Shown: positions 2,669 through 50,059 of the stretch, in pieces
How positions within the stretch are numbered: the stretch's first letter is position 1
Layout of the letters: each line of letters opens with the position of its first letter
Source: Morchella semilibera
Lineage: Eukaryota; Ascomycota; Pezizomycetes; Pezizales; Morchellaceae
Direction of reading: 5' to 3'
Length of the DNA stretch: 64,000 nt
Assembly (NCBI GenBank): GCA_009192285.1
Contig: CM018603.1
Span: 6,817,613 to 6,881,612, forward strand
Program-made: the position numbers and the translations under genes
Notes under the pieces: generated by a model
Seen by the model: only the letters and a program-made list of their open reading frames with translations
Databases searched by the model: none
What the model was told of the DNA's origin: nothing

Positions 2669-3915
2669 CTACAAGTCAACCTCAAATCGACTTATTCCAT
2701 AACGCATAACACGTAGATGAACAACATAAACGCTACTAAACAAAGGACCAGCCCTCTCCCAACCTTCACCCGCTCCACCATCTACATCGCAGATAAAATT
2801 TGCAATGATGTTTGGGTTTAGTGCGCTCGACTGCCCGCCGAAGTTGCTGTCGCTGTTGGTGGGGAGGAACGAGTTCTCGGTGGCGGGGCGACCGTCGAAG
2901 CCGCCGCCGAACTTCATGGTGGGGTCCGTGCAGATGCCAAAGTTGAGGTTCTTGCTTCCGGCGGCGGCTAGAAACGGATGTTAGAAATGTATTTTGGGAT
3001 TAGTAGGGAGAGGGGGCGGGCTTACCTGCGGTGGAAACGCCGTCAGTGCAGGGCTCAGCATTGGCAGCGGCTACGGCGGCTACGGTGGCATCGTCACAAG
3101 GAGGAGTGGGGGTTGCGCGGGCAGCGGCGGCGGTGATAGTAGCATCATTGCAAGATTCCGTCACTGATTTCGCAGCGATAGTGGCCGTGGCCTCATCACA
3201 AGGATCGGTAGGAGCTGCCGCCGCCGCCGCAACAGTTGTAGAGGCGTCATCGCGAGGGTCAGCCGTATTATCGACCGAAGCAGTAGCAGGAACCGAAATC
3301 GAGTGCTTGACACCTGACTTGGGCGTTATTATTATTGTGCGTGTGGATATGAGGTTCTGGAGCGCCCTTGGCCACCGCGCTTGCTGTAGCTGTAGCTGTA
3401 GCTGTGCTATGCCTGCGGTGAGGTTTTGCGGCGCGTTTAACCACCGCGCTTGTGTGTCTACGATGAGCTTCCGGAGCCCGCCTCACCACCGCACTAGCCG
3501 TATCTGTTGCTACTGCCGCCGTAGTAGTATCCGCAACACCCGTCGTGTCTGCTACTGCTGTCGTGTTGGTCGCCGCCGTTGTATCCACCGCCGCCGTTGT
3601 ATCCACCGCCGCGGTGGTCGTATCTCCCGCAGCGGCATCCTTAGTAGAGACAGCCGCGGCACCCGTGGTAGTAGCAGCTGCTTCAGACGCCGACGCCGAT
3701 TTGCGCCTGCGATGTGGTTCTGGGACTCTCTTTACTATCCCTATCTCCGGGGCACGTTTGACCCGAGAATTATTGTTATGAATGTGGATATGGGCCTCGG
3801 GGGAGTGCTTGACTTGGGCATTGTTATTATTGTGGGTGTGGACGTGCGGCATGGGAACGGCGGAGACTATGACGGCTGAGGCCATAAGGGCGGAGAAGGC
3901 GAGTGTGAGCTTCAT
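2669..3915 (-). CDS. Secreted His/Asn-rich repeat protein with kexin sites (frame broken)
   Basis: The start at 3915 is chosen because the next residues (MKLTLAFSALMASAVIVSAV) form a clean signal peptide; an upstream in-frame Met adds non-signal sequence. The mature part has three His-x-His-x-His-Asn(3-4) blocks (HVHTHNNNN, HIHIHNNN, HIHTHNNNN), dibasic VKR/VRR sites each followed by APE, VPE or AAK, and a Thr/Ala-rich linker. Exon 1 runs 3915-3026, the intron 3025-2968 (GTAAG donor), exon 2 2967-2669. Exon 2 encodes a domain with FGICTDP, FGGGFDGR, SALNPNIIANFICD, a pattern I recall from fungal secreted proteins. The reading frame breaks near 3285-3295: the first frame stops at 3268, while the frame leading to the C-terminal domain resumes with VKHSISVPA. 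One surplus G, or a 7-bp insertion relative to the first repeat copy, explains this. Function unknown; kexin processing is inferred. Confidence 0.6.
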
Positions 3916-9209: not shown

Positions 9210-11530
9210 GAGATGACGCATTTCCTTTTTGCCTATTTTTCTCTCCTTTTCTCAACCTCTATCTCTCCTTTGTTATCCTTTCCCTTTATTTTTGTTTTCC
9301 TATATTTTTTTTTCTATGAAGGGAAAAAAATAATTCATAATACCATGCGCGTGAATAATCTAATGGTACGTACGGGAAAACTAGACCGTGAAGGATGGTC
9401 AGTCTATAGGATGGAAGGGAATCTCAGGGCAGCCCCCCACCGGAGCGGGGAGGAGGGGAATGCGGGGGAAAGCTAGGAAGAGGAACAGGGAAGAGGGGAG
9501 GCTTCATGGAAACTTATTTCTTGGGGGTCTTGTCTTCTGGCTGGTTTGGTTCTGGTTTCTCTTTTTATGCGGCTCTTTTTTCTGTCTATCTCTCCGGGGG
9601 GGATCTAAACGGCGTACCTATATGTGATCGACTCTTTAGCTTGATTTTCTTTTTCTTCCATACGTAACGGAGTGGGTGGGGATTGGGAGGTAATATTGCG
9701 CTTTTGGTTTTTGCGCTTGTACGTTGTTCCGCTTGCCCACCTCTGTCCTACCCAGTAATCGCTATGCATCTCATCTCATCTCTATAGTTTACGCCACAGC
9801 ACTACACCACCACCCTGGAGGGGGGGGGGGGGAGGGAATCCTGATAGAATTCTACATATATACCATCATATCCACACATATTTACTTGGTGCTACGTATA
9901 CACACAGATATTTCCCCCACCTACCAACTCACCGCCGCTCCCACACCGCCGTTTTGGGCGGGTCAGATGAGATGCGGTATGCAAAGTTGATGATGTGATG
10001 TGTGTATCTAGCGGGTGAGCGCTCGCATCGCCGTTTTAGTTTCAAAACGGAAGGTCGAGTGACAGCACGTGATGTGGGGCGTGCTAGGATCAGGTTGTCG
10101 GTGTGGGGTTGAATGGGGAGGAATGCCTGATTACATAGATTGGGGCGATAAGAGATAAGGAGAACGAGGCTGCGCGGGCTATGCCAGGCTTTGGCCCTCG
10201 GAGACTTGTGTCAATGATTGAGAAGTCCTCTTTTCTGGGTAGTGGTTGGGTCACGTGTTAACCACCAGCAAGGTGAGAGAGGGTGGGTGGGAAGGTTCAG
10301 GGTGAACTCGAGCCTTGGAAGTTTTAAGTGTTCCGGGGAGGGACAGGGAAATATCTTATCATGTTATCTGGATAAGAGTTTATTGTCCTCGGACTATCGG
10401 ATTTTATTGCTTGGGATGTTCGTTTTGCACGGATTAGAGTTTGGTGCATTTAGGGGTAGGTGGAATACTGGATACGTCAAAAGGATACATGTATTCATGG
10501 ATGTAAATCCCGCTAGAGTTACGGCGGCCATGTCTACATATTAAAATCAAAACGCAGATGTGGCTCTATTGATGGTGTGTTTGTGAGGAGGGGGAGCATC
10601 TTTGCTATCAGGAACGGGATCGGTTCCTCACCTCATGGAGTATTTCGCTCAACCTTCCCATGATCGAGAAGTTGAATTCTCTATTGTTTCTTCATTTAGC
10701 ACGACTAATATACTCTCCGCTATGTGATTTGGAAGGAAGGAAAGACAGGCATGGGCACCATTCACTGTAGGTACAGATCAATTTGTTTAGAGATTGGATA
10801 AAAGAGCCCCCCCCCTTCCCTGGTACATGTATCTAGACAAACCCCTGAGGGTATGGTTAAACGGAGGGTACTATGATCACCACATGTAATGTCACCCAAA
10901 TTCAGTATAAATTCCTAGGAACAGGTGGTACTATTTGTAGGAATATGGAGAAGGTTTTTTTTTTAATTGTCAGGATCCACCAAATTGTTTTTCAAGCTTA
11001 TGAGGAGTTAGTCGTACCCCAGGATGACCATACCCCCCAGGAGTGCGTCTATTTACATGTAGTACATGTAGTATACTAGATGTAGTACATGTAGTCAATA
11101 CAAAGTCTATTACGACGTGCGCTTGAATTCAAGGAAGGTATAAGACTAGGAAGAGGGCAGGCTCTTCCATAAATCAGCACACGAGGCGATATCAAATATT
11201 CGTATCTACTCTTCAGCCGATAGAGTCGATTTCACGTTGCTACTGATATATATGTAGCCAATTTAACCGTTGGCCTTCACATGCTTGATCTGATTCCGAA
11301 TCACAAACCCTAACCCACCACCACGGAATCACGTGCAAATCAGCCTAGTTATCATTTGGGACGTCACCCATCATGCCGCATCACTCACCCACTCACTCAC
11401 TCACACCCGGCACCCCCTCACTGGAAATCACCCGGTTATCGACTAAAACAACCTCTTCTCCTTCCCCTTCTTTTTCCACCACCAACAACAATAACACAAT
11501 TAGACTAGGGCTACAATTACAGCTACAGCT
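9210..11530. other. Intergenic region, no supported gene
   Basis: This holds the 3' side of the upstream gene (pyrimidine-rich, 9210-9330), a G-run near 9821-9833, and a cluster of three TACATGTAG motifs at 11050-11095. From 11280 the sequence turns C-rich with CACTCACTCACTCAC repeats and leads into the seipin promoter. No coding region is recognised. Confidence 0.5.
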
Positions 11531-12607
11531 ATGGTAGATTCCACTGTTTCAAATTGCTTGCACGGATATCAACTGGCCATAGCTAACTGAGCCTACAGGA
11601 TGCACTACTTGCTCCCCTCCGGGCAGCAATCTCCCGCCCCGCAAGGCGCGCATATATCACAACCTTTTTGCTGACCACATCGGCGACATTCCTGCTGCTG
11701 GTGGCGGCCGGAAGCTATATAGCCTTTTATATGAACTATATCCCACACCTTAGTCACCGGCACCCCCTAAACCTACAATTCTCGTTCGTCCCTCTCCTCC
11801 CCCTTCTCAAGCTCCAACCAAGCTAACCCCCCCTCTTCTCCCCAGTCCCAGGCAGTATCCTACAGTTCTCCTACAGCTCCCACCCTCCTCCACAAAGCCC
11901 AACCAGCACTACACCATAACCCTAAATCTACACCTCCCCACCACCTCCACAAACTATGCCATCGGAAACTTCATGGCCGACCTCACGCTCCTCAGTCCCA
12001 CGAGGCACACCCTCTCGCACGCGCGCCGCCCAATCATACTTACGCACCGCTCGCCGCTTCTCGAGACGCTCGACACGCTAGTGCGCGCACCGCTGTACCT
12101 GACGGGCATGCGCACGCAGTCGGAGCATCTATGCATCACGCTGCTGGACGCCTCCTTCGAACAGGCGCTCGGCAGCCTCAAGCTCGTCCTCGAGGCCGAG
12201 CAGCTCGGCGTCTACGACGCCACCATCGAGTTCCGCGCACGCTTCGAGGGCCTGCGGTGGTGGATGTACAACCGCCGCATCACGACGTTCATCTTTGCGA
12301 CCGCCCTGTTTTGGGTGTTTGAGGTTGTGGCCATGGCGCTGGTGTGGTGGGCTGTTACGTCCTGGTTTGGGCGGCGCCGGCGCCGGCGGAGGGCGGGCGG
12401 GAGGGCGCTGGCGGCGAGGAGGACAGGGAGGGTGAGGAGGGGGGCGAGATGTATGCGGATGATGAGGGGAGTGAGGTCGAGGTCAAGGCGGAGAGCCCGG
12501 AGGTGACGGTGGATTCTGGGTTTGGTAGCATGAGTGAGAGTGCGAGCTCGTCGAGGGCGAGAGCCGCGGATATGACGCAGAGGAGGGGGAGGAGGAGTAG
12601 GGATTAG
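11531..12607 (+). CDS. SEI1: Seipin, lipid-droplet assembly protein (one-base frame break)
   Basis: Seipin is an ER protein that organises lipid-droplet formation sites. Proposed exons are a bare ATG at 11531-11533, then 11599-11783, then 11846-12607 (acceptor could be six bases later). The protein has a short N-terminus, a first membrane segment (about residues 22-45), NYIP and PLNLQF entering the lumenal domain, the signature TNYAIGNFMADLTLLSPT, HARRPIILTHRSPL, and a second membrane segment ending VWWAVTSWFG. After this the original frame becomes an Arg-run and stops at 12506. One extra G in the GGG of the Phe-Gly codons (near 12367-12372) would open an acidic tail (GGEEDREGEEGGEMYADDEG, then VDSGFGSMSES) ending at 12607, with total length 317 codons. 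The acidic tail is typical of fungal seipins, so a deleted G is likely. Confidence 0.85.
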
Positions 12608-13652: not shown

Positions 13653-14972
13653 CTACCCACTACTCGCGCCCTCTCCCTGCGTCTCCGGTGCCGGACTCGC
13701 CGCCGCCCCCAAAGCAGCAGCAGCAGCAGCTTTATTTGCAGCTGCCATCTGCCACGCCGGAATCGCCGGGCGACCCCCGACACCGCCGAATGGCAGCGCC
13801 GGCGCCCCCGCTCTTTGCCCCCCCTGCCCCCGTGCCCGAGCCAGACCCCAACGCCTGCCCGCCCTGCCCCGTACCATTCACCACCCCACCGCCACCATTG
13901 ACAGCACTTGGGTCCAATGGCGGCGTCCCGCCCACCAATCCCGTGCCCGCAAACTGTGGCCGCCCAGCGCCGGTCCGGTTCATGACCAGTTGCTTGAGGC
14001 TCTTTAGCTCCGAGCCCAGGTCTTCGAGCGCCTTCTTCTGGCTCTCCTTTTGGCCCTCAAGGGCCTTTGGGATGAGGTCGCGGAGGCCGCGGACTTCATC
14101 GCCGACACGTTTACTCTCGTCTTCACGGCGCTTGCCGGCGTCTTTGAGTGACTGGATGACGGACTCGACTTCAGCGAGGGCCGCGTCGACGCGCGTCTTG
14201 CGCTCCTCTTCGGCGGTCTTGAGGGTTGCCGTGTCGGCACGGAGGGTGTCGAGGAGGGCAAAGGCTTGCGCGAAGGAGGCATCGATGCTGGCTTTGTCGG
14301 TAGCGAGTTGGGGTGGCGTGGGTGGCGCGATGAGGGGTGTGATGTAGCGGCGGGCGAGGTGGTAGAGAGTTAATGAGGCGGTGGTGGTCACGGTCGCGAG
14401 GATGAAGTAGTCTCGCCAATCGCGGGCGCGGGGGGGGAGTCTGGTAAGTGTTAGATGGGGAAATGGATGGGTGTGGAGAAGATGGGGGGGGGGGTTACTC
14501 TTGTGGGGCATAGCGGTATTGCGGAGGAGAGAAGTAGCCACCGGGGGGGTAGAGCTGGCCGGTGGGTGGTGGAGCTAGGGGGGCAACGGCGCCGGGGCCT
14601 GCAGGGACCAGTGCGGATTGAGCCCGGAGGAGGGCAGCGTCGATTTCTTCCTGGGTGAGGTTTTTAGACTGGAGGAAGGCGATGCGTTTCTCGAGGGGGG
14701 AGGCGGCGACTGCTGGGTCGGCAAGGACTGGCAATAGGTTAGTATTTTAGCATAATTGGGGAGGAATTGATCGAAGGTTAAGGATTGGTGTTGTTGACAG
14801 TTGGGCTAATTGGTTGTAGGGGAGCTTGATATTGATGTGCACTTACAGTTGACCTGTGATTGGCTAGAGGGTTAGCGTGATGTCTTAAATTGAAGAGGGT
14901 AAGGTAAAACATGTGTGTGTAGGGGGAGATAAGGAAGTCACTTACAGCAGAGGCGATGAGGTCTTCTCGCAT
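13653..14972 (-). CDS. PEX14: Peroxin-14, docking component of peroxisomal protein import
   Basis: Pex14 docks cargo-loaded Pex5/Pex7 at the peroxisomal membrane. Exons on the minus strand are 14972-14946, a 7-nt micro-exon 14853-14847, 14727-14499, and 14440-13653. Spliced, the N-terminus reads MREDLIASAVNFLADPAVAA then SPLEKRIAFLQSKNLTQEEI, the conserved Pex14 domain that binds Pex5 and Pex19. Next come a Pro-rich stretch, RDWRDYFILATVT with a membrane segment, LIAPPTPPQLATDKASIDAS, and a coiled coil (about residues 150-240). The frame in use stops at 13732 after a non-conserved tail, but the adjacent frame carries the family's C-terminal IPAWQMAAANK and stops at 13653. Removing one base from the C7 run at 13818-13824 joins them and gives exactly 350 codons. 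An insertion error or recent frameshift is likely. The gene is divergent from NDC80. Confidence 0.92.
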
Positions 14973-16100: not shown

Positions 16101-18375
16101 ATGTCTCAAGATCCAAACCTTTTCAGCGCCTTCAAGCGTCCCCGCGATGTAAGCCCCCCCCCCCCCAATACTAATAATACCCCTCCTCTTCCACCCCCCA
16201 TACTAACACCCCACCTTCCTCCCCCCACCCCTAGACTCTCTCTGGCATCCCAACTGCATCTCAAAGTAACGCATACTCCTCAATTCCCCAACCTGCCTCT
16301 GCCCTCCGCCGTTCCAATTCTAAATCACGCCCTCCCGTCTCCAGTAGTCGCATGTCCCTCGCCCCACCAGCAACCTACTCCCGCCCCTCTGATGCCGACT
16401 TGATGTCAACAGCGCGGCGCGACCCTCGCTCTGCTCGTCAATCCTATGCGCCCCCCTCTACCTCCACCTCCTCGCAACCTGTACCCCCCTCCACCGCTCG
16501 CCGCTCCTCCGTCATGCGCCGTTCCTCCGTCGGTGGTGCGGCCCTCGGTGCGCTCAACAGCTTCTTTACCTCCTCTGCCAGCGCCCTACCCCAGCGTGAC
16601 CCCCGCCCCCTCAAGGACCGTACTTTCCAGGCAAAGATCGCTCAGGAACTTCACGAATACCTCCTCACGAACGGATTCGAGCTCGAGGCCGGCCACTCCC
16701 TCACCCCCACGGCGCTCAAGTCGCCCACGCAAAAGGACTTTACAATGATCTTCCAGTGGCTGTACCACCGGCTGGACCCCAACCACCGCTTCCAGAAGCC
16801 CATCGAGCAGGAGGCCCCCCCAATCCTCAAGGCCCTACGCTACCCCTTCGCCCAGTCAATCACAAAGTCCCAGCTCACCGCCGTCGGCTCCGCAAACAGC
16901 TGGCCGAGCTTTCTGGGAATGCTGCACTGGATGCTGGAGCTCATCCTGACCACGGAGCGCTACCAGAGCGGCGCGTATGACGACGCAGCCGCTGCAGAGG
17001 GCCACGATGTCGGTGCCGACCGCATCATCTTTCGCTACCTCACCAGCTGCTACCGCGCGTGGCTGGCCGGCGACGACGACCACGACGAGTTCCTGGACGA
17101 GATGAGCGCGGCCTTCGACGAGCGCGCGGCCGTCTACACCTCTGAACTCTCCCGCCTCGACGCCGAGAACGCCGCGCTCCGCGCGCAACTCGCGGCCCTC
17201 AACGACGGCGAGGAGCCCCTCAAGAAGCTCCAAGACTCCCGCCTCCTCATCGAGACCGACACTAAAAAGTTCCTCGACTACTGTAGCCGGCTGGAGCACC
17301 GCATTGCAAAAACCACAGACACGAACGCCAAGCTGCGCGACGAGCTCTCCACCGCCGACAACGAGCTCTCCGCGGCCGAGGCCGAGAAGGCGGAGCTACA
17401 GGCCGCAGTCGACCGCCAGGGCCTGACACCCGCCGACATTGACCGCATGAACAGCGAGCGGGAGAAACTGACCAAGGGGCTATCGGCGCTCTCCGTACGC
17501 ATCAGCGAGACACGGCAGAAGCTTCTCGAGCGGGAGGCGGCGGCGACCAGCGCGCTGGAGGGCCTCGAGCGCGCTGTGGCGCGATACAACACGCTCGCAT
17601 ACCAGATCGGGCTGTTGCCGTCGAGCGCGCCGAACGCTGGGGGGCGCGAGTTCGAGCTGACGATCGTGCCGCTGGCCGGCCAGGAGGACACAAAGTTGCT
17701 GGTCGACGCGGCGACGGGGTACCAGCCCGCGGGGTGGTGGGGCGCGACCTGCGCCACGAGGTGCGCCCCGCGCTGCTGAAGCTGAGGACCGAGATCGCGG
17801 CGCGCATCCATGAGGTGCAGGACGAGGCGATCCGCACGCAGGAGACGATCGACCGCGTGGCCGAGGCGCTGGCCGAGAAGAACGACGAGGTGGATACGCT
17901 GCATGCGAGGGTGCAGAGCGCCGTCAGCGAGTACCAGGAGATCAAGGATAACATCTCCGTCGAGGGGAACGCGAGTAATGCCGAGATTGAGAAGTTGGAG
18001 AAGGAGCTGGCGGGGATGAGGGTGGGCATGAGGGAGGGTGTGTTGGCGGTGGAACAAAGAGTACAGGGGGTCATGATTGAGTATGTTTGCACCTTTTTTT
18101 ATTATACCTTTTTTTATTATACCTTTTTTTATTATACATATTTCTTTTTTATATGGAAATCTGGTTATGGATCAAACACTAACAAGGCCAATGATCACAG
18201 ACGCGACCAACTCGCTCACGCCGCCCAAGCCCTCCGCGAGCGCTTCCACGGCGAGGTCGACCGCATGCTCAACGAGGTCATCAAGTTCAAAGTGCACATC
18301 CAGGACACGCTGCAGAGCTACGAGCAGCTCGTCGAGGGCGAGCTCACGGGAAACGATGCCCTCATGGAGGGTTAA
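16101..18375 (+). CDS. NDC80: Kinetochore protein Ndc80/Hec1 (one-base frame break)
   Basis: Ndc80 is the microtubule-binding subunit of the NDC80 kinetochore complex. Exons are 16101-16148, 16235-18080 and 18201-18375. The N-terminus MSQDPNLFSAFKRPRDTLSG is a basic, Ser/Thr-rich tail. The calponin-homology region follows with RDPRPLKDRTFQAKIAQELH, LKSPTQKDFTMIFQWLYHRL and NSWPSFLGMLHWMLELI, then a long coiled coil. The frame breaks at 17731-17734: VDAATGYQPAG runs out of frame and stops at 17779, while VVGRDLRHEVRPALLKL continues one frame over. One more G in the GGGG run restores continuity and gives exactly 690 codons, a normal length for the family. Intron 2 (18081-18200) holds three perfect copies of a 15-bp T-rich repeat. 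Confidence 0.93.
18091..18135 (+). repeat. Three tandem 15-bp repeats inside NDC80 intron 2
   Basis: ACCTTTTTTTATTAT is repeated perfectly three times, starting 10 bases after the donor. A partial fourth copy (ACATAT) follows. Confidence 0.9.
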
Positions 18376-19018
18376 ACGAACGGCTAATTTAGAAAAAGAA
18401 AGAAAAAAAGACTTTTTCTTATTTTTTTATTTTATATCTATTATATAACGTCCTTTTTTACGGCTTTTTTCTTTTCTCTTTCTTCCTCTTTATTGTTAAT
18501 TACTAGGGATGGGTGTTTACGGTTTAACTTACTTGTTCTTTTCTTTTTCCTAGTCTGGAGCTTTTGTACTGGCGGTGGTGAGTAGTGAGTGGTAGTTAGT
18601 ATTTCCCAAAGATGTAATGTCAGGCAGGGGGGGCTTTGGTGCCAAATACATACATACCCACGGCATTTTCCTGGTAGGTAATACTCTAAGTATATCGCAC
18701 CCAGCAATGCTACTCTATCTGCGTGTATGTGTGCCTACGTGTAGGCATGTCCGTCGTATTCGCCCGCTGTGGTGCTGATGGCGCTACATGTAACTGTCCT
18801 ATGGCGGTTAGTTTCGGGTACTTGGTTCGATAGGTTACTTACATGTCTCTCTTATCCGGCCACATAATCGGTATATGTGACCCGGACCCAAACCCCCGGG
18901 ACCGGGACCGGGACTGTAATTGATCCCTGGCCCTGCCTGCCCCTCCTCTGGAGGGGTATGACACGAATTCTATATACATACATGTATATATGTATATAGT
19001 CCCGTCCTACCCCACAAT
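18376..19018. other. Intergenic region, no supported gene
   Basis: The first 130 bases after the NDC80 stop are T-rich (probable 3' UTR). The rest holds TACATGTA motifs near 18787 and 18977 and a GGGACCGGGACCGGGAC run at about 18897-18914. Nothing coding is recognised. Confidence 0.5.
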
Positions 19019-19024
19019 ATGATA

Positions 19025-20288
19025 ATGGCACCCAGCTCAATCATAATCGTAGGCTCCGGCGTGTTCGGGCGTAAGCCACCTCCCCATCCCCCCTCTTCCG
19101 CCAGATTCCCACCTACTGACACACCCCCGCCCCAGTCTCGACCGCACTAGAGCTGATCCAGCGGCGGGCCTTCGCCAGCACAAAGATCACCGTGATTGAC
19201 CAGCACCCGTTCCCGGCGCCGTACGCCTCGTCCATAGACTCGTCGCGCATCATCCGCGCCGACTACAAAGACCCGCTCTACGCCGCGCTCGCCGCCGAGG
19301 CGCAAGAGCACTGGCGCGGCGAGCTCGGCGCCTGCGGACGCTACTCCGAGAGCGGGCTGGTCCTCGTCGGCTCAGACTCCAACTACGTTGCGCAGAGCCT
19401 GCTCAACGTGAGGGCGCTGTTTGGGCCGTCCCTGGTGCAGCACCTCCCTGACGCTGCTGCGATCCGCGCTGCGTGCGGAACGGGTGGCGGGTCGGGGGCG
19501 AGCGGGTATATCAACCGTGCGTCGGGGTGGGCGGACGCAGAGGCCGGGATGCGGTATCTGCGCGCGCAGGTGGAGGCGCAGGCGGCGGCGGTGGAGTTTG
19601 TGGTCGGGGAGGTTGTGGGGCTGGTTGGTGGGGAGGGGGGCCGGGTTGAGGGTGTTGAGCTGCGGGGCGGGGAGGTGCTGCGCGGGGGGTTGACGGTGCT
19701 GGCGGCGGGGGCGTGGACGCCGGGGTTGGTGGATTTGAGGGGGAGGGCGGTGCCGACGGGCCAGGCGGTGGGGTATCTGGATATTACGGAGGAGGAGGAG
19801 GAGCGGTATAAGGGCATGCCCGTGATATTGAACCTCACGACCGGGTTGTTTGTGATGCCGCCGCGCGGGGGCGTGCTCAAGGTTGCGCGCCATGCAGTCG
19901 GGTATACCAGCGCCTCTGGCCCCGTCACGGGCCGCGGAATCCCGAAGGAGGCAGAGGAGGAGCTCCTACAGGCAGTAGCTGAGATACTGCCGGGGCTTGC
20001 GGGGAGGCCGCTGGCGAGGACGAGGATGTGCTGGTATACTGATACGCCCACGGCGGATTTCCTGGTGTGCTACCATCCGCAGAGGGAAGGGCTGTTCCTG
20101 TGCACGGGGGGCAGCGGGCATGGGTACAAGTTCCTGCCAGTGCTGGGAGAGAGGTGGTCGATATATTGGAGGGCATGAAGGGTGCACGATTTGCGGGGAA
20201 ATGGGCGTGGAGAGAGAGCGTGGAGACTGTGGTGACGGCGGATGGGAGTAGGGGCGGCCTGGGGCAGGCCGAGTTGGAGGTCGAGTGA
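19025..20288 (+). CDS. FAD-dependent amine oxidase, sarcosine/fructosyl-amino-acid/saccharopine oxidase family (one-base frame break)
   Basis: This is a DAO-superfamily flavoenzyme that would oxidise a secondary amine and release hydrogen peroxide; the substrate cannot be read from sequence. Exons are 19025-19070 and 19136-20288; an in-frame Met at 19019 is an alternative start. The dinucleotide-binding start SSIIIVGSGVFGLSTALELI, SSRIIRADY, YSESGLVLVG, a GxGAS-like substrate loop, RMCWYTDTPTADF and GGSGHGYKFLPVLGE are all typical. Cys314 in CWYTDTP matches the position of the covalent-flavin cysteine of monomeric sarcosine oxidase. The frame is lost near 20153-20157 and stops at 20178, while VVDILEGM...FAGKWAWRE runs one frame over to 20288. 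One extra G (AGG to AGGG) joins them and gives 400 codons. No peroxisomal SKL end is seen (ends LEVE). Confidence 0.87.
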
Positions 20289-22914: not shown

Positions 22915-22939
22915 AATAAAAATCTTGCCAACAATCTTC

Positions 22940-28798: not shown

Positions 28799-30707
28799 TT
28801 AGGTCATATAGTACTTTGGGCCCTCTCCCCCCTGGGGCGTCGTCCAGTTGATATCCTGGCTTGGTGCCTTGATATCACACGTTTTGCAGTGAATGCAATT
28901 CTGTGCGTTGATCTGGAATCTCACGCCATTCTTCTTCGTCGCGTCCTCCACGTATTCATACACTCCGGCTGGGCAGAACCTGTTCTCTACTCCCTTGAAT
29001 CTCGGCCATTCCTTCTCCGCGTGTTTGTCCCAGTCCGCAACTTGCAGGTGCACTGGCTGATCCTCCTCGTGATTTGTACCAGTTCGCGAGACAGATGTGA
29101 GGATGTCGAAGGACAAAACTCCGTCAGGCTTAGGGTATGTGATGGGGGTTGACTTGTCCGCAGTCTTAGTAGCAGCATAGTCAGGGCCCGGGTGTTTCAG
29201 GGTCCATGGAACGCGGCCTTTCAGTACATAGGCCTCAAGTCCGGAATACAAAACCCCGCCAAAAAGTTTGAGCGGGGAGTGGAAACTAGGTCTCATATTG
29301 CGAACCTCCTTGAGTTCTTTCCAGATGCTGCTCTTGCGCAATGCGTCTTCATAGTTGTATAACATGACTGTTCCGCCAGTCTTGTTGGTCTCCAGTGCCT
29401 CGAAGCAAGCTTCAGCAGCCAAAATTCCAGACTTCATAGCGGTATGAGTTCCCTTGATCTTTGGTACGTTGAGGAATCCGGCAGTGTCGCCAATGAGAGC
29501 TCCACCAGGGAAGGTAACTTGGGGATGGACTGGAAGCCGCCCTCGTTAAGAGCACGGGCACCATACGAGATGCAACGACCGCCCTCGAGGACAGAGGCAA
29601 AGAACGGGTGGTGTTTCATGCGTTGGAATTCGCCATAAGGTGATAAGTATGGGTTAGGGTAGTCCTGCGTCACATTAGCATGCTACGGGGATTACCACCA
29701 GCTTCACGAGAACATACAAGACCGACAACAAGCCCAAGCGACACTTTGTTCTCTCCAAAATGATACATCCAGCTACCACCATATGTATTTGCCGGTAGTG
29801 GCCACCCCAAAGTATGACTGACTTGCCCCTTCACAAACTTCTCGGGCTTGACCTCCCATACCTCCTTCAACCCAATACCGTATGTCTGTGGCTGGGAGTT
29901 CTTCCTCAGATCAAACTTCTTGATGACCTTTTTTGTCAAGCTCCCATGGCACCCCTCTGCAAACAATGTGCATCTTGCATGGAACTCCATACCCCGCTCA
30001 AAGCTCGGCCTCGGCTTCCCATCACGCCCGATACCGAGGTCATTGGTCGCCACACCCTTCACACTCCCGTCGGGGGCGTATAGGACCTCGCTCGCGGCAA
30101 AGCCAGGGTACACCTCCACACCAATCTCTTCAGCGCGTTCGGCCAGCCACTTTGTCAACTCATTGAGAGAAACAATGTAGTTGCCGTGGTTGTTCATCTG
30201 CGGAGGCCCAGGCATGGGTATGGCTTTGTTCTTAGTAAGAAACCGCATGCGATCTGACGTAACCGCCGTAACATTCTTGAATCCGCTCTCGTTGTCCGGG
30301 CTATTCCAGTCCGGGAGGAGCTCATTGAGGGCACTGGGTTCGATTACGGCGCCAGAAAGAATGTGTGCTCCCATATCGCCAGCTTTTTCAAGTAGCAGAA
30401 CACGGAAGTCCTCGTTTCCAGCAGCATTGGCTTGTTGTTTCAAGCGAATTGCAGCGGAGAGACCAGCAGGGCCGCCACCGACAATACAGACATCGACCTC
30501 GTCAGACTCACGCTCAAATTGAAGGGCATCGTTATAGCGTATTGAGGCGGCGTGGAAGGGACGTAGAGCTGGAAGTCGTAAGGCTGTAGCAGCAGGCAAC
30601 GAGGAACGTATTCGGGGGATTTTACGGGGTATCGACAGTAATGAGTGTGCTGGCGAAGTAGCGACTTGTCGAATAAGTAGTGAAGAAACTCTTCGTGATG
30701 CAGCCAT
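28799..30707 (-). CDS. CIR2: Electron transfer flavoprotein-ubiquinone oxidoreductase (one-base frame break)
   Basis: ETF-QO passes electrons from ETF, reduced by acyl-CoA and other dehydrogenases, to ubiquinone at the mitochondrial inner membrane. Exons on the minus strand are 30707-29718 and 29664-28799, with a GTATGT donor and GCTAAT branch. The N-terminus is a basic, Ser/Arg-rich presequence. [20 protein letters not shown] is the FAD-binding loop; [20 protein letters not shown] spans the splice junction; FCPAGVYEY and [12 protein letters not shown] near the end are the 4Fe-4S ligands. Near 29517-29518, after FQSIPK, the frame goes wrong and stops at 29412, while [20 protein letters not shown] is intact one frame over. 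One missing base (AAGTT where AAGGTT is expected) accounts for it, and adding it gives 619 codons, the usual family length. Confidence 0.95.
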
Positions 30708-38726: not shown

Positions 38727-40633
38727 GGTTCTCTAGAAAGCCCTCCAATTGGTCTCGAGATAGAAGGTAGGGTGTGGTGTCGTTGAAGTAGCAGAATCCT
38801 ACATGTAGGTACCCAAGCAAAAAAATTCTGAGTGAAAAGACAGAACTCAACCTTGCATGTAAAGATGTAAACACTTCATATAAGGAAAGCGCACTGAGAA
38901 TAGAAAAAGAGTCTAGTGAAGTTATTGGCTTGAAGTCAGCTTACAGAGGATCAGGAACGATACGTTCGGGAAGATCTATAGGTTCGCCAAGACATGAGGC
39001 TTGGATTTCAAGGGTTAGGGGAGAGCTTCTTTTTAACGATGCCTTTAACCATACATGTACCTATCAGTTCACCTCAACCAGTCATCGATATATCCTCCTG
39101 GAGATCTATACTTCATAACATTTGGTTAAACATATACGCTACATCCATCTCATCTTCATCGTCAATAAGGGCTATGGACCCCCGCAGCATACTGGGGGGA
39201 GCGCTACACGTTCACCCAGCTAGCGCCTACCTGCCCACGCAAGCTTTGAACTTCGGAACACCTCTAAGGAACCGCCAGTAAGGTTATATGAGTACTGGAT
39301 AAAAGAGTGGGTTCATGGATACATCCCCATGAAATCATATCCTATCACTCGCCATCAACATAGTAGCGAAAGTCATCATCAGCGGTTACACCATACCACT
39401 GTCTTATCTCAAAGTGGTGTAAGGTGGTCCATAGAAGAGATCTATGCATTCACATCATCTATTGAGGGAAATAGAAATATCTCAGCCGGTCAATTTCCTT
39501 TATTATGGGTGTTACTCTCACTCATTTCGACCAACCCCAAGAGAAGGCCAGAATTCGAATTAAGATATACCAGAAAGAATCAACAGAACGGGTGGAAAAT
39601 AACAATACCACCTCTCCATCACACTATGCTGAGTTTGGGAAGACCTACCTTGAATACAGCTAGACCACCTTAGGAGTCAACTATAGAGGAGGCCTTAGCT
39701 TTCGCCATTCTCAACTAAATAAGGCTAAATTTTTCTCTCGCCGACTAGCTGCTCTGGGGGACTATTCATAGTCAAACCAATACACTGCGGCCCAAGCTTC
39801 CAATACAGTTGTTTGCTACCCACCACCGCGTCCAAAAGGGATCAAATATTATGCTAGAAATGTCTATTCTGGCCGCAATCAAGTGGCGCTGGATAACTAA
39901 TACGGAGGCCAACGAAATGGCAAATATAATCGCGATACGCAGATACACATGAGCACATATAACCAGCTCGACTACATAATTTATTGACCAAAGCCTGAAC
40001 ATACTATTTTCTTTCTCTCTCTATTACTTTATGTTTGATTGACTCGCCCGCTATATAAGCCTGGCCGGTGTGAGTATTGTCCATGTGATTGGGCTGCACC
40101 TTATATATCTAGCTGGGGTGTGGTTCTGCGCGCCGAAATATACACAAAACCACATATGAGGACAAGCTAAAGTCTACACAACGCCCCATTCAATCGGGCC
40201 TCCTAAGGTATAGGAAATTGAACAAATGGCCGGCTGGGACCGTCAAGTTAGACACTAGCTAGCTATGAAGGCACTTGCATTGGATCACCTTTATGAGGTT
40301 ATTTAGGAATAATGAGGACGGGAAAAGAGACATCTGCAAGTTTTATTGTTTGTTTGTTTGCTTTATTGGGGGAATGTTTTCTCTGCCTCCAGTAACAACA
40401 AACAACAGGATTTTGCCCTCCTGCGGGGGGGTGGGATCGAACGAGTGAGATACAATGACGCACTGAGTCATGCCGCTTACCCGGCCCACTTCCACACCCC
40501 TCCAAACACCCCACCAAAGGCAATGATTGATAATCCCCACCAAGGGCATCAATAACTCTCCATATATATATATATCGCAGAGCCACTACCACCAACTCTG
40601 CTCACCCCAAACACCCCAATTCCTCACTCCACC
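38727..40633. other. Intergenic region, no supported gene
   Basis: Divergent spacer between the Oms1-like gene and CDC123. TACATGTA motifs occur near 38808 and 39053. A tRNA-like but non-folding sequence lies around 40425-40495 on the minus strand. A short ATATATATATAT run at 40562-40574 sits about 60 bases before the CDC123 start and may act as a TATA element. Confidence 0.45.
40562..40574 (+). promoter_or_regulatory. Possible TATA element of CDC123
   Basis: An alternating AT run 60 bp upstream of the CDC123 start codon, in otherwise C-rich DNA. Position and composition suit a core promoter; this is an inference. Confidence 0.35.
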
Positions 40634-41776
40634 ATGGTCGAACTTGAAATAAGAGACGCCCCCCCAGCACAGGATGACGGCAGCGACATCCTCTCTGCTC
40701 CAAAATCCCTCCACGAGATCTTCCCCCCCGTATCCAAATCCCACATCCTCAACTGCGCCTTCGCCGCCTGGCACCCGCTGTACCGTTCGCTGACGCCCAA
40801 AGCACGCACCATCCCCCTAACGCCCGAGTTCCTGTCCTACCTGCGCGAAGACGGCATCGTGCTTCCCGACGACGAGGAGCAGACCACCACCCTCTCCGAC
40901 TCCGACACCGAAGACGAAACCGAAACCGAAACCGAAGACGAAGACGAAGACGCGGACGAGCGATCCCAGAACCCAACGGCGCGCTTCCCAACCCTGCACC
41001 AGCAGATCAAGACCACACTGCGCGAACTCGGCGGCAGCGTGGCCCCAAAGCTGTCCTGGAGCGCGCCCAAAGACGCCGCCTTCATGACCGCAACCAACAG
41101 CCTCGAGTGCCGCACGCCCGGCGAGATCTACCTGCTGCTGAAGAGCTCCTCATTTATAACGCACGACCTCGAACACGCCTTCGACGACTGCTCCGACCCC
41201 TCCTCCGGCGACGAAACGGTACCGCACCACCTAGTCCTGCGCAAATGGTTCGCCATCAACCCATCGCTCGAGTTCCGCGTATTCGTCGCCTCCCGGCGCA
41301 TCCTCGCAATCTCGCAGCGGGACCCAAACCACTACCCCTTCCTGCAGCGTCTGCAGCCCGCGCTGACAGCCGCCATCACCTCCTTCTTCGTAGCACACCT
41401 GGCGCCCACGTTCCCCGACGCCGACTTTGTCTTTGACGTCTATGTCGCGCACCGCGACAGCGAGCCCACGCGCGTGTGGCTGATCGACATCAACCCGTTC
41501 GCGCCGCACACCGACGCCCTCCTGTTCTCCTGGGTCGAGATCCTGCGGCTGCGCAACGGCGAGAAGGAGGAGGAGGGCCGGGAGGCGGAGTTGCGGCTGG
41601 TGGGCCGCGACGACCCGGAGGCGCGCTTTGCCGGCGCCCAGTACGGCGCGAGTAAGTTGCCGCGGGAGGTGGTGGAGGTGGGGCTCGAGGGCGAGGAGGC
41701 TGTGTGGGAGTTTGCCAGGAGGTGGAGGGATATCGTCGAGAGGACGGAGAGGGCGGCAACGGCGGAGAGGAGGTGA
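40634..41776 (+). CDS. CDC123: Cdc123/D123, eIF2 assembly factor
   Basis: Cdc123 is an ATP-grasp-like chaperone that joins eIF2-gamma to eIF2-alpha to assemble the eIF2 complex in the cytosol. The gene is one exon of 380 residues with an intact frame. HILNCAFAAWHPLYRSLTPK opens the domain; an acidic loop (TEDETETETEDEDEDADE, about residues 97-114) is lineage-specific. Conserved blocks are ARFPTLHQQIKTTLRELGGS, APKLSWSAPKDAAFM, EIYLLLKSSSFITHDLEHAF, LVLRKWFAINPSLEFRVFV and VWLIDINPFAPHTDALLFSW. The Asp and Asn of LIDINP match the metal-coordinating positions of the family. It is convergent with the TRAPPC12-like gene, with a 276-bp spacer. Confidence 0.95.
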   Translation: MVELEIRDAPPAQDDGSDILSAPKSLHEIFPPVSKSHILNCAFAAWHPLYRSLTPKARTIPLTPEFLSYLREDGIVLPDDEEQTTTLSDSDTEDETETETEDEDEDADERSQNPTARFPTLHQQIKTTLRELGGSVAPKLSWSAPKDAAFMTATNSLECRTPGEIYLLLKSSSFITHDLEHAFDDCSDPSSGDETVPHHLVLRKWFAINPSLEFRVFVASRRILAISQRDPNHYPFLQRLQPALTAAITSFFVAHLAPTFPDADFVFDVYVAHRDSEPTRVWLIDINPFAPHTDALLFSWVEILRLRNGEKEEEGREAELRLVGRDDPEARFAGAQYGASKLPREVVEVGLEGEEAVWEFARRWRDIVERTERAATAERR

Positions 41777-42052
41777 TGCGGTTGGTTTTTTTTTCTTTCT
41801 TCTTTCTTTGCCTTGGTTTTCTTTCTTTGGTTTTCTTTGGGTTGGGTGCTACGGGTGATGTTTCTTACTCCTCTTTCTTTGTATGTAGGCTGGTCTCAAG
41901 AATGTATTCTAGTTAACACGACCGCATCCGCATAACTACACGAAAACAAAACAAAAGAAAAACAAAAAAACAAAAAGATATCCCCACCAGACCAAGACCC
42001 AAAGCAGAAAAGAAAACGCCCGAGTGACACCCAAGACGCCCCCGAAAGCTAC

Positions 42053-43373: not shown

Positions 43374-43596
43374 TGCTGTAGTTCGGAAAAGGTTGTTTGT
43401 GTGTGGTGGAATATGTGGATTGTGATCATTGACGTCGTTGGGGGGGAAATTGCGTGTGGCAGGGAATGGGCAGGGTAACTTGGGTGTGTCTTCTTCTTGC
43501 AGCAACGACACCCGGCACATACAAATAAACACACAGCATTCTTCTACTCGGCACTCTATTCAACACACACGCAACACAACACTCAACACACCCGCA
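43374..43596. promoter_or_regulatory. Bidirectional promoter, TRAPPC12-like and SR/HEL117-like genes
   Basis: Only 223 bp separate two divergent start codons. The interval carries TTGACGTCG at about 43428-43436, a CRE-like core (TGACGTC) that bZIP factors of the ATF/CREB class bind. Regulation by such a factor is an inference. Confidence 0.45.
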
Positions 43597-44694
43597 ATGG
43601 ACACCCACCGCTCCCGCTCCCGCTCCCCCCACCGTCACACCCACACCCACACCCACCGTCACCGCCACCGTCACTCCCGCTCCCGCTCCCCCCCCTCCTC
43701 CTCTCACCACCACCACCACCACCACCACCGCCGCCACCGCTCCCCCGCGCGCAAGTCCACACCCCCCCTCCCCCTCCCCTTCAACGCCCCCCCCCCTGAG
43801 CCGCCACGCCCCCACCCCCCTCCCCGCCGTCTTCCGCGACTACCTCGACATCCAGAAGGGCCTGCGCCTCGACACCCTGTCCGCGCGCGAGGCAAGGGGC
43901 CGCTACAAGCGCTTCGTCAGCCACTAGTATGTGTTGTGCTCTCCCCCCCGTGTTTCCGGAGGCGGCGGACTAATTGGCAGTAATCGTGGAGAGCTCGCGA
44001 GGGGGTGGTATGAGCGCGTTGTGAAGGAGTCGCGGGGGCCCGCCGCCGTCACAACCACCGCCGATACCGCCGTCACCACCGTCACCACCACTACCACCAC
44101 CACTGCCAAGGACCAACAGAAGCAGCAGGAGGAAAACGAAGACGACAGCGGCAGCAGCGAGGACGAACTCGTCGGCCCCTTCCTCCCCGGCAAGGAACCA
44201 AAGCGCGCCACCGCCGCCCGCCCAACCTTCCAAGACCTCGAACTCCAAAAAGGTACCTCCCCCCCCCTCCCCATCACCTCCTCCCACTAACACCCCCACC
44301 AGCCCAAGCCCTCACCGACCACGCCAGCGCCCAGAGCGCCACCCGCGCCGAGCGCAAAGCCGAACGCCAATCGCGCGCCGCCCTCCTCGACGAGCTCGCC
44401 CCACGCGCAGACCCAGGCACGTTTGCGCGGCGGCTCGAGAAGCGCGCCGAACGCGCCGTGCCCCCCGCCGACGACGGCGCCGAGGACGACGACGCGGTGC
44501 TCCTCGGCGAGGGCACCGAGGGTTTCAAGATGAAGAAGGCGGCGCTCGAGCGCAAGAAGAACGACCGCGAGCTGCGCAAGGAGCAGCTGCTGCAGGCGCG
44601 CATCGCAGAGCGCGAGGAGCGCATGGCCATGCACCGCGTCAAGGAGGAGAGGACGATGGCTATGCTTAGGACCCTGGCGGGCAGGTTTCAGTAG
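43597..44694 (+). CDS. Conserved SR-rich nuclear protein, HEL117-like (one-base frame break)
   Basis: Exons are 43597-43926, 43981-44252 and 44303-44694. The N-terminus is Arg/Ser/His-rich (MDTHRSRSRSPHR, RHSRSRSPPSSS, a run of eight His), as in splicing-associated proteins. It then loses frame in a run of ten C at 43787-43796. With one C fewer the sequence continues PPLSRHAPTPLPAVFRDYLD, IQKGLRLDTLSAREARGRY, then across the intron KRFVSHYNRGELARGWYE, the family's signature block. The C-terminus has ARRLEKRAERAV and a basic helix ending RVKEERTMAMLRTLAGRFQ. Corrected length is exactly 331 codons. Fungal relatives are often labelled RNA helicase HEL117-like, but no helicase domain is visible; a role in RNA processing is inferred from the SR region only. 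Confidence 0.75.
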
Positions 44695-45954
44695 CTGGGG
44701 GAGTGGGGGTTTATAGTTTTAGTTTTTTTTTTTTTTTAGTTTTTTTTTTATTATTTATTTAGTTAGTTTTTGCTGGTTTGTTTTTTTGCTGGTTTGATGT
44801 GCTCTGTTTTTTGTTTGTTTTGGCAGATATGTAGTGGCGGTGTGTTGTGGACGGTGCGCGCGGTAGGTCGCAGAACGTCTCCTTACAGCCGGGCAGCCGG
44901 TGGATTAAGGGCCCCCGGAGCCAGCTCTGTATGTATCATGTATGTGTGTATGCATATCCCACTCTCCACACCAAGCGGTCCACCCACAACCCAGCCCGCA
45001 ACCCACCACCCAAGAGATAGCAAGCACGAACCTTCTACACCCATACATACCCGATGGGGGGGCTACACCAAGTACCTACATTCCAAGGAGGGTGGAGGTT
45101 ATACATGCATATACGCACGGTACACCCTACTAGTGAAACAAGTGAGTGCCCACAGCCTGGCTAGGCAATACATACTCCAGCCTCTCGACAAGCCCGGCCC
45201 GGAAAGCTTAGGACAATTGTGCAAGGTGGTGGCATGCCAACGGGGATGGATGATGGCGCGGCGGCAGCAGTACATACATGTAGTAAAGAATACAGATACA
45301 AAGTGGCAAAAAGAAAAAAAATAGGCTTCAGAGGCCATTACCTACCCCCCTTTTTCGCATTTTGTACCTTTAAAGCTCTTTCTTTCGTTTTCCCACGCGG
45401 GTGTACTAATGTTTTTACGCCGTGGTGGATGCGGATGTGGGGGTTTGCTAGGCCTTGGCTGTGATGTGATGTTGGTTACCCCGAGCATACAGTCTCGGGG
45501 ATGGGGGTAACAATGTAACCGTGGGGGTACGGTATTCAGTCAAGGATACCGGTTTGAACCAGCATCGTAAGTAGAATGCCCTATCGATACCGCATCAATA
45601 CCGTATTCTTACAGAATCACTAGTCAATGCCCATTTCCGGTACTGTACTTAACTACCCAGGCCATTTACCCAGTGTAGCTGCCTTGTAGTTACGAGCATA
45701 AGAAACCTCTCTTGTTACGCTGGGGCCTCAATCAAGTCTCGAGCTGCGTCGAGTGATGGGCTGTGATGCTCCTGCTCAATATCACATATCCCGTAAGACT
45801 CGACGTTCTGTGGAACGTATATAGATATTCACTATATATATAAGCTAAATAAATATAAACAGAGCCCCCCAAACATCATCATAATCACCATCTACCTAAT
45901 TCATCAAACAACTATTAACCTAACTGCATCATGAACTCGCACTCGCACTAATAT
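44695..45954. other. Intergenic region, no supported gene
   Basis: T-rich 3' UTR sequence (44716-44790) is followed by about 1.1 kb of non-coding DNA with a TACATGTAG motif near 45285. Convergent with the NACHT-ankyrin gene. Confidence 0.5.
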
Positions 45955-48900
45955 TTATACTACCTGCTTCTGCTTCTGCTTCTGCTTCTGCTTCTGCTTG
46001 CCCCCGGCCCTCTTCCCCCCTCCTCCTCTCACTGCTGTATGACTAGCTGGCTCCGGAAGCGCCGGATCAATGACCCTCGCCACCCTCTCCAGTCCCTTCT
46101 CCAGCGCCGTCTCCACCGGCGTCTTCCCATCTGCATTTTTCGCCGCCCCGTCCGCCCCAGCATCCACCAGCAGCCTCGCTACTGCGACATGCCGCGCCCC
46201 ATGCAGTGGTGTCTCGCCGCTCTTGTCGCGCGCCTCGATGTCCGCGCCCTTGTCCAGGAGCACCTTCACGACGTCCTCGCAGCCATTGTGGGTAGCGCGG
46301 TGTAGTGCGGTGTGGCCCTGCTTGTCTTGCAGGGTGATGTCGGCGCCCCTATCGATCAGCAGGACTGCTATAGTGTTGCGGCCAGCCTCGCAGGCGAGGT
46401 GGAGCGCTGTCTCGCGGAGCACGTTCTGCGCGTTGATGGGCGCGCCCTTGTCGAGGAGGGTCTTGACGAGGGTGTCGCTGTTGTCGTCGACAGCGAGGTG
46501 TAGCGCCGTGGATTCGTCGGAGGTGCTCTGGACGAGGATGTCGATGCCGCTGTCGATGAGGAGCTGTGCGGCCGCGCGCTGGCCGGCAAAGAGGGCCGAG
46601 TGGAGCGCCGTCTGGTTTTCTGTATCGACGGCCGAGAGGTCTGCGCCGCAGTGGATGAGGTGTCTCAGGATTTCCACGTGGCCGTGCTTTGCCGCCCCGT
46701 GGAGCGCCGTGGACCCGTCCCAGTCCCTGGCGGCGGTGTCGACGCCGTTGGAGGTGAGCATCTTGACGATGGCGTCGCAGCCGTATATGGCGGCTTCGAG
46801 CAGCCCGCTCTTGCCACCATCGTTTTTGAGGGATTCCTCGGCAAACTTCTGGACGATGACTCGCTGCACTTCCTCGTGGCCGTTGATTGTGGCTAGTTGT
46901 AGTGGTGTGCTGCCGAATTCGGCGCGGGCTGAGATGTCGGCCCCGCGGTCGATGAGGAGCCGTACTACGGCGGTGTGGCCGTCGCCGGCCGCGAGGTGTA
47001 GCGATGTCCATTGGCTCCCGTTTCGGGATGAGATGTCAGCTCCACTATCAAGGAGTAGATTCACCACGGCAGTATGGCCGTGCAGAGCAGCCCGATGCAG
47101 AGGGGCGCGGGAGTCCTTGTCAATGACTGATATATCGGCTCCGTGCTGAATTAGTTGCTTAGCAACCTTCTCATGGCCATACCTAGAAGCTAAATTTAAA
47201 GGTGTCTCGCCCTCTTTTGCTTGCATTGAAACGTCGGCGCCTTTCTCAAGAAGCAATCTTACTATCTCTTCGTGACCCTCATTGGCTGCTAGGTGCATCG
47301 CAGTGTATCCAGTATCATCCTGGATAGAAATTTCGGCTCCTTTGTCGATAAGTAGCTTCACAACTTCGTAGTTCTGAACTCTGGTAGCCTGGTGAAGTGC
47401 TGTGTGGCCTTCGTGAGTTTGGGTCGAAATCTCGGCCCCGTTATCAAGAAGCAATTTCACCACACCAAAGTTGCCCCACAAGGCGGCTATGTGTAGGGCC
47501 GTCCATCCCTCTTCTTCCTGAGCTGCTATGTCAGCCCCATTGTCGATGAGTAGTTGCACTAGTGAGGCGGGGCCATCACGAGCTGCTGCATGCAGTGCTG
47601 TATAGCCTCTACTATCTTGCAATGATGGATTGGCTCCTTTCTTTAGGAGGGCCTGCACTGCCTGGGAGTGTCCTAATGAGGATGCTAAATGAAGTGGTGT
47701 AACATCCTTTGGATAGTTCTGACAATTGAGGTAAAAATTGAGATAGAAATTTTCAATCTCATCATAGCAGCCTTCCACTTGGTAGTATGAAGCAACGTTG
47801 CCAGGGCTCTCGCAGAGTTTGAGGACCATATCAACTGATAAAGTCTCATCGCAACGCACAAGATGATGACGTAGATAACGCACTGCGTAGAGCAGAAAAG
47901 GGTTCGACTTGACCCGGGCCATAAAAGAGACTTTATCAGAACAGGGTCCTTTTGCAAGGATATCAAAGGAAAGGAAGGTGGTGCAGGCCATGGCAAGTGT
48001 AAATTCTGAACCCTGGAGCACCGAGTTCTCTAAGATGTATTCCTCAACGGTGTAGTGGACTAGACGGACAGTGTTTCCGTTTTTGTCAAACATGGCTAGG
48101 CCGGCACAGACATCGAGAATCGTTGTCATTTCTACAAGCAAGTTGACCTCATCGAGCTCATATCGACCTGGCTCAACTGATATTGCAACACGGAGCTCCT
48201 CTAGCGTAAGGGGGCGCTGGGAGTTGACTAACCACGAAAGAACGGCCATCCCTAGCTTTGCCCGCACAAGAGTCTGGCTGCGGATCGTTTCCATAGCTCT
48301 ACTATACGTGTTGTCCAGGGTCTTCCATCGGCTGAGGAGATCTTTAGCTTCTCAAGTGCGGATAGTATTTGTCTCCCAGTCGTCTGCTGGCACAAATACT
48401 CAATGTGGAAGTGTACCATCAAAAACCTAAGAAGAGAATGAGAATTGCCAGTAAAGGTTTATTTATCATCGCAAAATTTACTTACATCCCGTGTGCACTT
48501 TCAGTAAGCTCAGTGATAATCCGTTTCTCACATCTTGCCTGTTTAATAAGGCGTTTCGCTTGTAGGTCATTGTCAATGGTCTGACGAATATAGGTGGCAA
48601 TATCTTCATCGTGTGCCGACAGTTCAATCTTTTGAGCTTCACGAAAGGATTCTTGGATATCACCTGGATGCTGACGACTCGTAACAAATACGTTGGCCCC
48701 ATCATCCTTCATACGATGAAACAATTTAAGAAGCTCTGTCCGCTGCTCTCTTTGGTCACACTCGTCTAGCGCATCAAAGATTAAAAAGGCTTGGTTGAAT
48801 GATTTAAAAAGAATCTTGAGGATATTATAGAGTTCCTCAAACGTTGGCCTGCCCCCAACTGAGTTCTCCATGCACCTATCGTAGAGCTTTTCAAGCTCTT

Positions 48901-50059
48901 TTGGGAGAGTACTTGTCTGAGATGCAAGTTGTTTGACCAAGCTAGCTAGGGTGAGGAGGGGTGTTTGCAAATCCTTCTCTTTGAAATCAAAATATACGTA
49001 GGCTACCGCATAATCTTTTGCGGATGCTTGGGCCAGGAAATAGTCGATTATGAAGGAACTATAATTGTTGCTTTAGTCACCAGGAACTCAAGAAATACTA
49101 TTATAATATGGCATACCTCAAAAAAGATTTACCAGCCCCGGCTGTCATGATTGAATTCTAGTCAATAGACGTTCTCTAAAATATGACCAAGTTCGACAAA
49201 CATACGGATGCCATATCCCCAAAGCAGCTGAGATCTAGATCCTAGCTGAGATGCTTTCTCAAATGCTTTAAACTCAGGCGTCTCGAAGATCCACCCTCCA
49301 GTGTTTTGATGCCGCCTGCTAGTGATGTGAATCTGCTTCGTGACTGTATCATAAGGATGCAACCAATGGAGGGTTTTCTGATATTTTTTCGTCTGTCTTT
49401 CCACTAATGTGCATGTGCTGGTATCAGTAAGGAGTTCGCTGTCATAGATTAACTCAAATGCAGGTTCCTACACAAACGGGTTTTCTTCTCTTCCTCCGCC
49501 TGTGTCTGGAGATCCCGGATGGCTAGTTCCGTTTTCCCTACAGATTCTCTAATCTCAGTCGATAAAGACCTTGGGTTGACTGCATTAGCATTGGTTTGTT
49601 CTGAATTTACACACAAACTCACAAATGATCAATATTCAACGCTGTGGCGAAGAGCCCTCTCTGTCTTTGAATTCGATTTATATATTGCTGAGTATCTGCT
49701 TGTTTAAGTGGCCATTTGAGACGATGCAGGAACCTTCTGAGTCGTCCCTGGTCAGACCGCGAGCTTTCCAACACACTCTTAAGACCAGTCAACATCTCGA
49801 GACATTGCGGAAGAGGCCCATCAACGCCATTTGTTCTTTCGCCGAGCTTCCGCAGTACCGTTGAGTGTGGGTTCTTTGTGGCTACCTCTTTAAGGGCGTT
49901 AAGGACTTGACTAAGTGAGTTTAGCTCACCTAAGAGCTCCTTAATCTCCGCTGGTGCTCCCTTTACTCCTGTGTAATATCTATAGCTTATGTCGGCAACT
50001 TGTACAGCTGCTGTGGCCAAACCAACAATGCCCGACGCAATTCCTATAGCCTCAGCCAT
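45955..50059 (-). CDS. NACHT-ankyrin STAND (NLR-like) protein (one-base frame break)
   Basis: Fungal STAND proteins of this type act as intracellular sensors in non-self recognition. Six exons on the minus strand: 50059-49623, 49569-49478, 49403-49206, 49141-49117, 49058-48486, 48426-45955. Residues 1-140 (MAEAIGIASGIVGLATAAVQ, GAPAEIKELLGELNSLSQVL) are a Helo-like/PigL_N-type N-terminal domain. LLWGYGIPGAGKSFLSSFII, assembled over two splice junctions, is the NACHT Walker A; AFLIFDALDECDQREQRTEL is Walker B; NVFVTSRQHPGDI follows. After a winged-helix-like linker come 16 full ankyrin units plus a partial one (for example HTALHRATHNGCEDVVKVLL), then a (KQ)n tail encoded by a CTTCTG hexanucleotide run. 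The frame breaks at 48343-48345: one more A in AAA joins EYLCQQTTGRQILSALEKL to DLLSRWKTLDNTYSRAMETI and gives 1,266 codons. The small exons make the 5' model moderately certain. Confidence 0.82.
45960..45999. repeat. CTTCTG hexanucleotide repeat encoding a (KQ)n tail
   Basis: About six tandem CTTCTG units, in frame within the last exon of the NACHT-ankyrin gene. They encode alternating Lys and Gln immediately before the C-terminal Val-Val. Confidence 0.85.

Follow-up and report, generated by a model that had tools for sequence, protein, structure and literature searches.

Within a 64,000-nucleotide stretch of a morel scaffold (the window; C1:6817613-6881612, in an assembly of 56,756,124 bases and 23 contigs), eight genes appear to change reading frame by a single base. 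Are these genes broken in the fungus, read by the cell in some unusual manner, or misrepresented in the deposited sequence? A preliminary description favoured the last of these, and attributed the frame switches to likely assembly error, mostly at homopolymers, in keeping with unpolished long-read or homopolymer-prone sequencing.

Long open frames served to train a coding model, and an HMM that allowed for introns and one-base frameshifts was run without hints as to where the sites lay. By coding score on each side, a one-base change of best frame is seen at, or close to, the suspected place in seven of the eight genes, namely those for the secreted repeat protein, seipin, PEX14, NDC80, the FAD oxidase, ETF-QO and the NACHT-ankyrin protein (Table 1), and a favoured coding frame is retained on both sides of the break at seven of the eight sites. 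The HMM called five of the eight on its first pass, at 3296 (as an extra base in the secreted protein gene), 12370 (seipin), 13790 (PEX14), 17745 (NDC80) and 20138 (FAD oxidase), and five after retraining, at 3296, 12370, 13800, 17745 and 29516 (ETF-QO). Four sites are thus common to the two passes and six are covered jointly; the FAD oxidase site was found only in the first pass, the ETF-QO site only after retraining, and the SR and NACHT-ankyrin sites in neither. Of the artificial single-base changes that were introduced, the HMM recovered 6 out of 12 placed in the window and 34 out of 69 placed in other loci, and at some settings it gave introns in place of shifts at the ETF-QO, FAD oxidase and NACHT-ankyrin sites. 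Direction was judged against frame, and a base is lost at five sites and gained at three. The statement that each of the eight genes switches once therefore holds by coding score for seven of them and not for the SR/HEL117-like gene. The supporting argument that a single-base change restores an exact multiple of three codons is circular, as this is true of any one-base frame switch, and it adds nothing.

Retraining also yielded one extra call, at window position 24455. This weak call, of a putative extra base in a low-GC region, received a three-frame look.

Table 1. Genes of the window with a suspected one-base break, and two intact control genes (window positions).
Gene	Position	Strand	Break or remarks
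Secreted histidine/alanine-rich repeat protein	2669..3915	-	gains one base near 3285-3314
Seipin	11757..12607	+	loses one base near 12367-12372, downstream of the matched seipin domain
PEX14, candidate start	13653..14746	-	one-base gain inside about 13790-13824, in a run of 7
NDC80	16235..18375	+	loses one base near 17731-17745; PF03801
FAD-dependent amine oxidase (fructosyl-amine/sarcosine oxidase type)	19025..20288	+	loses one base near 20147-20157
ETF-ubiquinone oxidoreductase (ETF-QO)	28799..30707	-	loses one base near 29515-29518
SR/HEL117-like gene	43597..44694	+	possible one-base gain, C10 run 43787-43796; weakest of the eight
PigL_N/NACHT/ankyrin protein	45955..50074	-	loses one base near 48340-48346
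CDC123/D123 homolog, intact control	40559..41776	+	one open frame, GC-rich; PF07065, E 2e-109
NOT1, intact control	57265..63354	+	three long exons; CNOT1 and Not1 domains

Alignment to 2gmh_A shows that the two pieces of ETF-QO cover residues 295-344 and then 345-581, with one base shared between them and no residue lost; the other frame change of this gene, near 29665-29716, is due to an intron. The FAD oxidase behaves similarly against 4rsl_A, in that the first piece ends at 387 and the second covers 388-414, albeit with a weak match (E 0.86), and again one base is shared. At this gene the retrained HMM gave an intron at 20065-20113 instead of the shift. The NACHT-ankyrin gene carries PF17111, NPHP3_N, GPIID_WHD and ankyrin repeat domains, and the coding score supports its break, with a score of only 3.6 before the site; a paralog (L029:9720-10000) keeps an open frame across the equivalent site. 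The claim that the conserved protein continues one frame over is borne out by these three, for the FAD oxidase with a weak second piece and for the NACHT-ankyrin protein by way of the paralog. Other frame changes within PEX14 (at 14441-14497), ETF-QO and the NACHT-ankyrin gene are ordinary GT..AG introns, as judged by translations and the HMM. We note that the second NACHT gene (L029:9114-10000) lies about 19 kb past the window, and that it shares 50% identity with the window copy over 189 residues upstream of the break.

For NDC80, the NDC80_loop profile matches from 4 to 71 in one frame (29.5 bits, with a cut-off of 27) and from 77 in the next frame with 23.0 and 24.6 bits, under the curated cut-off. 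Because 65 bases separate the two stretches for 5 profile positions, the alignment alone is compatible with an intron, and the frame change in this gene is argued mainly from coding statistics. The structure 9n9g_1 aligned as far as query residue 482, and the second piece gave no NDC80 match among solved structures. Seipin has a strong domain match (PF06775, E 2e-41) and coding scores of 16.0 before and 23.6 after the site, in different frames. In PEX14 the Pex14_N domain (PF04695) lies within 14498-14746 and the coding score agrees with the HMM, as it does in the secreted protein gene, where it likewise shifts frame. The SR/HEL117-like gene gave no useful Pfam match. Its coding score prefers the same frame before and after the C10 run, in a stretch of low complexity, and the case for a possible break depends on the missing ATG in that frame together with a family motif. 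No frameshift was called by the HMM in either control, CDC123 or NOT1; the open pieces of NOT1 are 470, 779 and 639 aa long and the HMM gives introns only.

The same defect was sought elsewhere in the genome, in 26 loci outside the window (101.0 kb of predicted coding sequence); twenty of these were 10 kb loci spread over the genome (82.7 kb coding). The twenty spread loci yielded 8 HMM calls; by eye, two of these are in SMC2, one is in ankyrin repeats and five are in transposon-like frames. The SMC2 condensin gene (L003:2470-3900; C1:2.70 Mb) is on the same scaffold as the window, 4 Mb away, and has two one-base breaks. One is confirmed by pieces that meet at residue 180 of 4rsi_A; the other, the first in the gene, is likely, judging from the downstream piece, the HMM and reading by eye, and the upstream piece (L003:2470-2583) gave no SMC2 match among solved structures. 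No HMM calls were made in four flanking loci (13.8 kb coding). By call counts the window looks modestly enriched for breaks: host-gene calls number 5 in its 29.2 kb of coding sequence versus 3 in the 101.0 kb of the 26 other loci (P 0.017), and all HMM calls number 6 versus 8 (P 0.072). Match tables for Cpn60_TCP1, HSP70, tRNA-synt_1 and Sugar_tr, which hold the best candidates (for example the best 9 of 161 for Sugar_tr), contain no recognised break among the matches listed. A gap in a CCT gene on C23 that resembled a frame break was rejected, as the HMM reads it as an intron. The changes in transposon-like frames (L005:4932, L008:4830 and 7085, L009:6565 and L016:3648) may reflect real decay, a programmed shift or error.

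One explanation is that the indels are real, in which case some or all of the genes would be pseudogenes or truncated alleles of the strain that was sequenced. The clustering of calls in one patch would fit this, as would the presence of a secreted repeat protein and a NACHT-ankyrin gene, both of kinds able to decay, and the position of the seipin break downstream of the matched domain. However, the genome holds a single match for each of NDC80, ETF-QO and seipin, and the NDC80 stretch has one DNA copy. The locus is like a set of pseudogenes in having broken frames, but these are single-match core genes in which the coding signal is kept on both sides of the break, and SMC2 elsewhere is also hit; we consider real indels very unlikely. 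Pex14_N has two matches in the genome, and the second (C4:1064689-1064823) possibly corresponds to a PEX14-like paralog of filamentous fungi.

Unrecognised short introns could also produce such frame changes, and several further frame changes in the same genes are indeed introns. One HMM setting preferred an intron for ETF-QO, another did so for the FAD oxidase, and both did so for the NACHT-ankyrin gene; as far as alignment goes, an intron could lie in NDC80, seipin, PEX14, the SR/HEL117-like gene and the secreted protein gene. No intron fits ETF-QO or the FAD oxidase, however, because the pieces share one base and the residues are complete relative to the known protein, and the NACHT paralog shows the same continuity. 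We give introns next to no credence as the source of the breaks.

The sequence context of the breaks was also compared with that of coding sequence in general. Runs longer than 4 hold only the PEX14 site (a run of 7) and the SR site (a run of 10); at the other six the run at the site, or no more than 3 bases from it, is 2 to 4 long, which is near chance, as a run of at least 3 is found at 43-63% of random coding positions and one of at least 4 at 15-23%. Runs of 7 or more are present at two of the eight sites versus about 1% of random coding positions (P 0.003), and four of the eight lie within or close to a run of at least 4, a marginal excess (P 0.048). The suggestion that the breaks are mostly at homopolymers is thus partly right, holding for two of the eight sites. 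Six runs of at least 16 bases occur in the window and six in 23 other loci, so that long runs are not generally collapsed in the assembly.

Programmed +1 and -1 frameshifting is known in Euplotes and Ty elements, and a protein that continues in another frame, with both flanking frames looking coding at seven of the eight sites, is what would be seen if the genes were translated by the cell in their present form; but the morel breaks go in both directions and no motif common to them was found, an in-frame XXXYYYZ heptamer is absent from the break at all five base-losing sites, the NACHT paralog is read without a shift and NOT1 and CDC123 are open, all of which makes programmed frameshifting extremely improbable. 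The FAD oxidase has one in-frame heptamer 41 bases upstream of its break, and seipin has one that is out of frame. It is equally hard to credit that translational frame changes in core genes are tolerated or exploited by the morel, with a concentration in the GC-rich genes of one chromosomal patch.

Six of the eight broken genes have a G+C content of 57-69%. The genome as a whole is 47% G+C, and GC-rich gene islands (about 60-69%) occupy window positions 11500-20300 and 40600-44700; these hold five of the eight broken genes, with the sixth (57%) nearby. There was no HMM call in two equally GC-rich neighbours (40634-41776 and 42053-43373). G+C content alone was rejected as the cause of the breaks, as GC-rich sampled genes are comparable in extent (10.3 kb in bins of at least 60% G+C, versus 9.0 kb in the window) and the SMC2 break sites are at 42% and 45% G+C.

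The scaffold count, the total length, the longest scaffold (7,341,407; C1) and the N50 (2,999,225; C3) agree exactly with the values tabulated (Table 1) in the report on Morchella crassipes M10M26 (PMC7014384), an assembly with the accession WBVU00000000. According to that report the genome reads are from PacBio RSII (P6-C4) and Illumina, the runs listed (SRR10230725-SRR10230733) take in PCR-free Illumina libraries as well as RNA-seq of the parent strain, and assemblies from ALLPATHS-LG, DBG2OLC and FALCON were merged by Quickmerge, scaffolded with SSPACE and closed with GapCloser (PMC7014384). The words pilon, polish, quiver and arrow are absent from its main text, which refers to an earlier pipeline (PMC7014384); the same group's earlier paper on M. 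importuna describes the use of Pilon and Quiver (PMC6164635), and both may also have been used for M10M26. Of the proposal of unpolished long-read sequence, the long reads are therefore confirmed by the report, and the lack of polishing is uncertain.

Taken together, the breaks are very probably places where the M10M26 consensus still carries a one-base insertion or deletion error, to judge from the sequence, and the genes are most likely whole in the living morel. We infer that the cause lies in the consensus. Assembly error, as proposed in the preliminary description, is well supported because the affected genes include single-match core genes, conserved residues continue across several of the breaks, bases are both lost and gained, no common slip site was found, the distant SMC2 gene has the same defect, and the assembly is a merged one; the homopolymer link and the absence of polishing are the weaker parts of that proposal. 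Several observations count against consensus error: six of the eight sites are in short runs about equally common by chance, and the defect is rarer elsewhere, the 101.0 kb outside the window giving 8 HMM calls, of which 3 fall in host genes and 5 in transposon-like frames, with none in the flanking loci and no recognised break among the matches listed for the four conserved families. The intron readings by the HMM at the ETF-QO, FAD oxidase and NACHT-ankyrin sites, the 65-base gap in the NDC80 alignment and the possible use of Pilon and Quiver also weigh on that side.

A merged assembly would be expected to be patchy, and the patchiness could result from the merging of assemblies with unequal base accuracy or, alternatively, from poor short-read correction in GC-rich stretches. 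The Drosophila Quickmerge assemblies, made by a similar recipe, are reported to average 180 indels per 100 kb when unpolished, 32 once polished with Quiver and 16 with Pilon (PMC5100563). The eight sites in the window's coding sequence amount to about 27 per 100 kb, and the three host-gene calls elsewhere to about 3, a figure that rises to 6 for a recall of one half; the morel rates are thus at or under the published polished rates and would be consistent with residual errors, although this is a rough comparison, as the Drosophila figures are whole-genome averages and those for the morel are from coding sequence in part of one genome. Long-read indels are reported to occur mainly, but not only, at homopolymers (Kastor, PMC12007338). 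The morel breaks resemble the cases described there in being one-base indels, both deletions and insertions, that split conserved genes and include non-repeat sites, but differ in being patchy along the scaffold and in that only two of the eight are in runs longer than 4 (PMC12007338).

These observations amount to a data-quality warning on the scaffold, rather than a biological novelty. Automatic annotation would truncate NDC80, ETF-QO, PEX14, seipin, SMC2 and others, and the truncated annotation could lead morels to be wrongly credited with gene losses. Were the bases real, it would be remarkable, since kinetochore and condensin genes of the core set would then be broken or recoded; no result favours that.

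Two further features of the assembly were noted in passing. The ITS4 primer site has no exact match anywhere in the assembly, and nuclear ribosomal DNA may be absent from it, withheld or altered. In addition, scaffolds C9 and C10 (2,071,371 and 2,071,177 bases) have their genes in common, at coordinates that almost coincide, as do C12 and C13 (1,576,628 and 1,575,470 bases), and telomere-like repeats are present at the start of both C9 and C10. These pairs were rejected as an independent estimate of error, as they do not cover the window and are identical in all six stretches compared (9,465, 2,000 and 1,500 bases for C9 and C10; 9,978, 1,500 and 1,500 bases for C12 and C13). Two scaffolds, together about 3.6 Mb, are thus probably present in duplicate in the published assembly, and this doubling may inflate its gene and chromosome counts.
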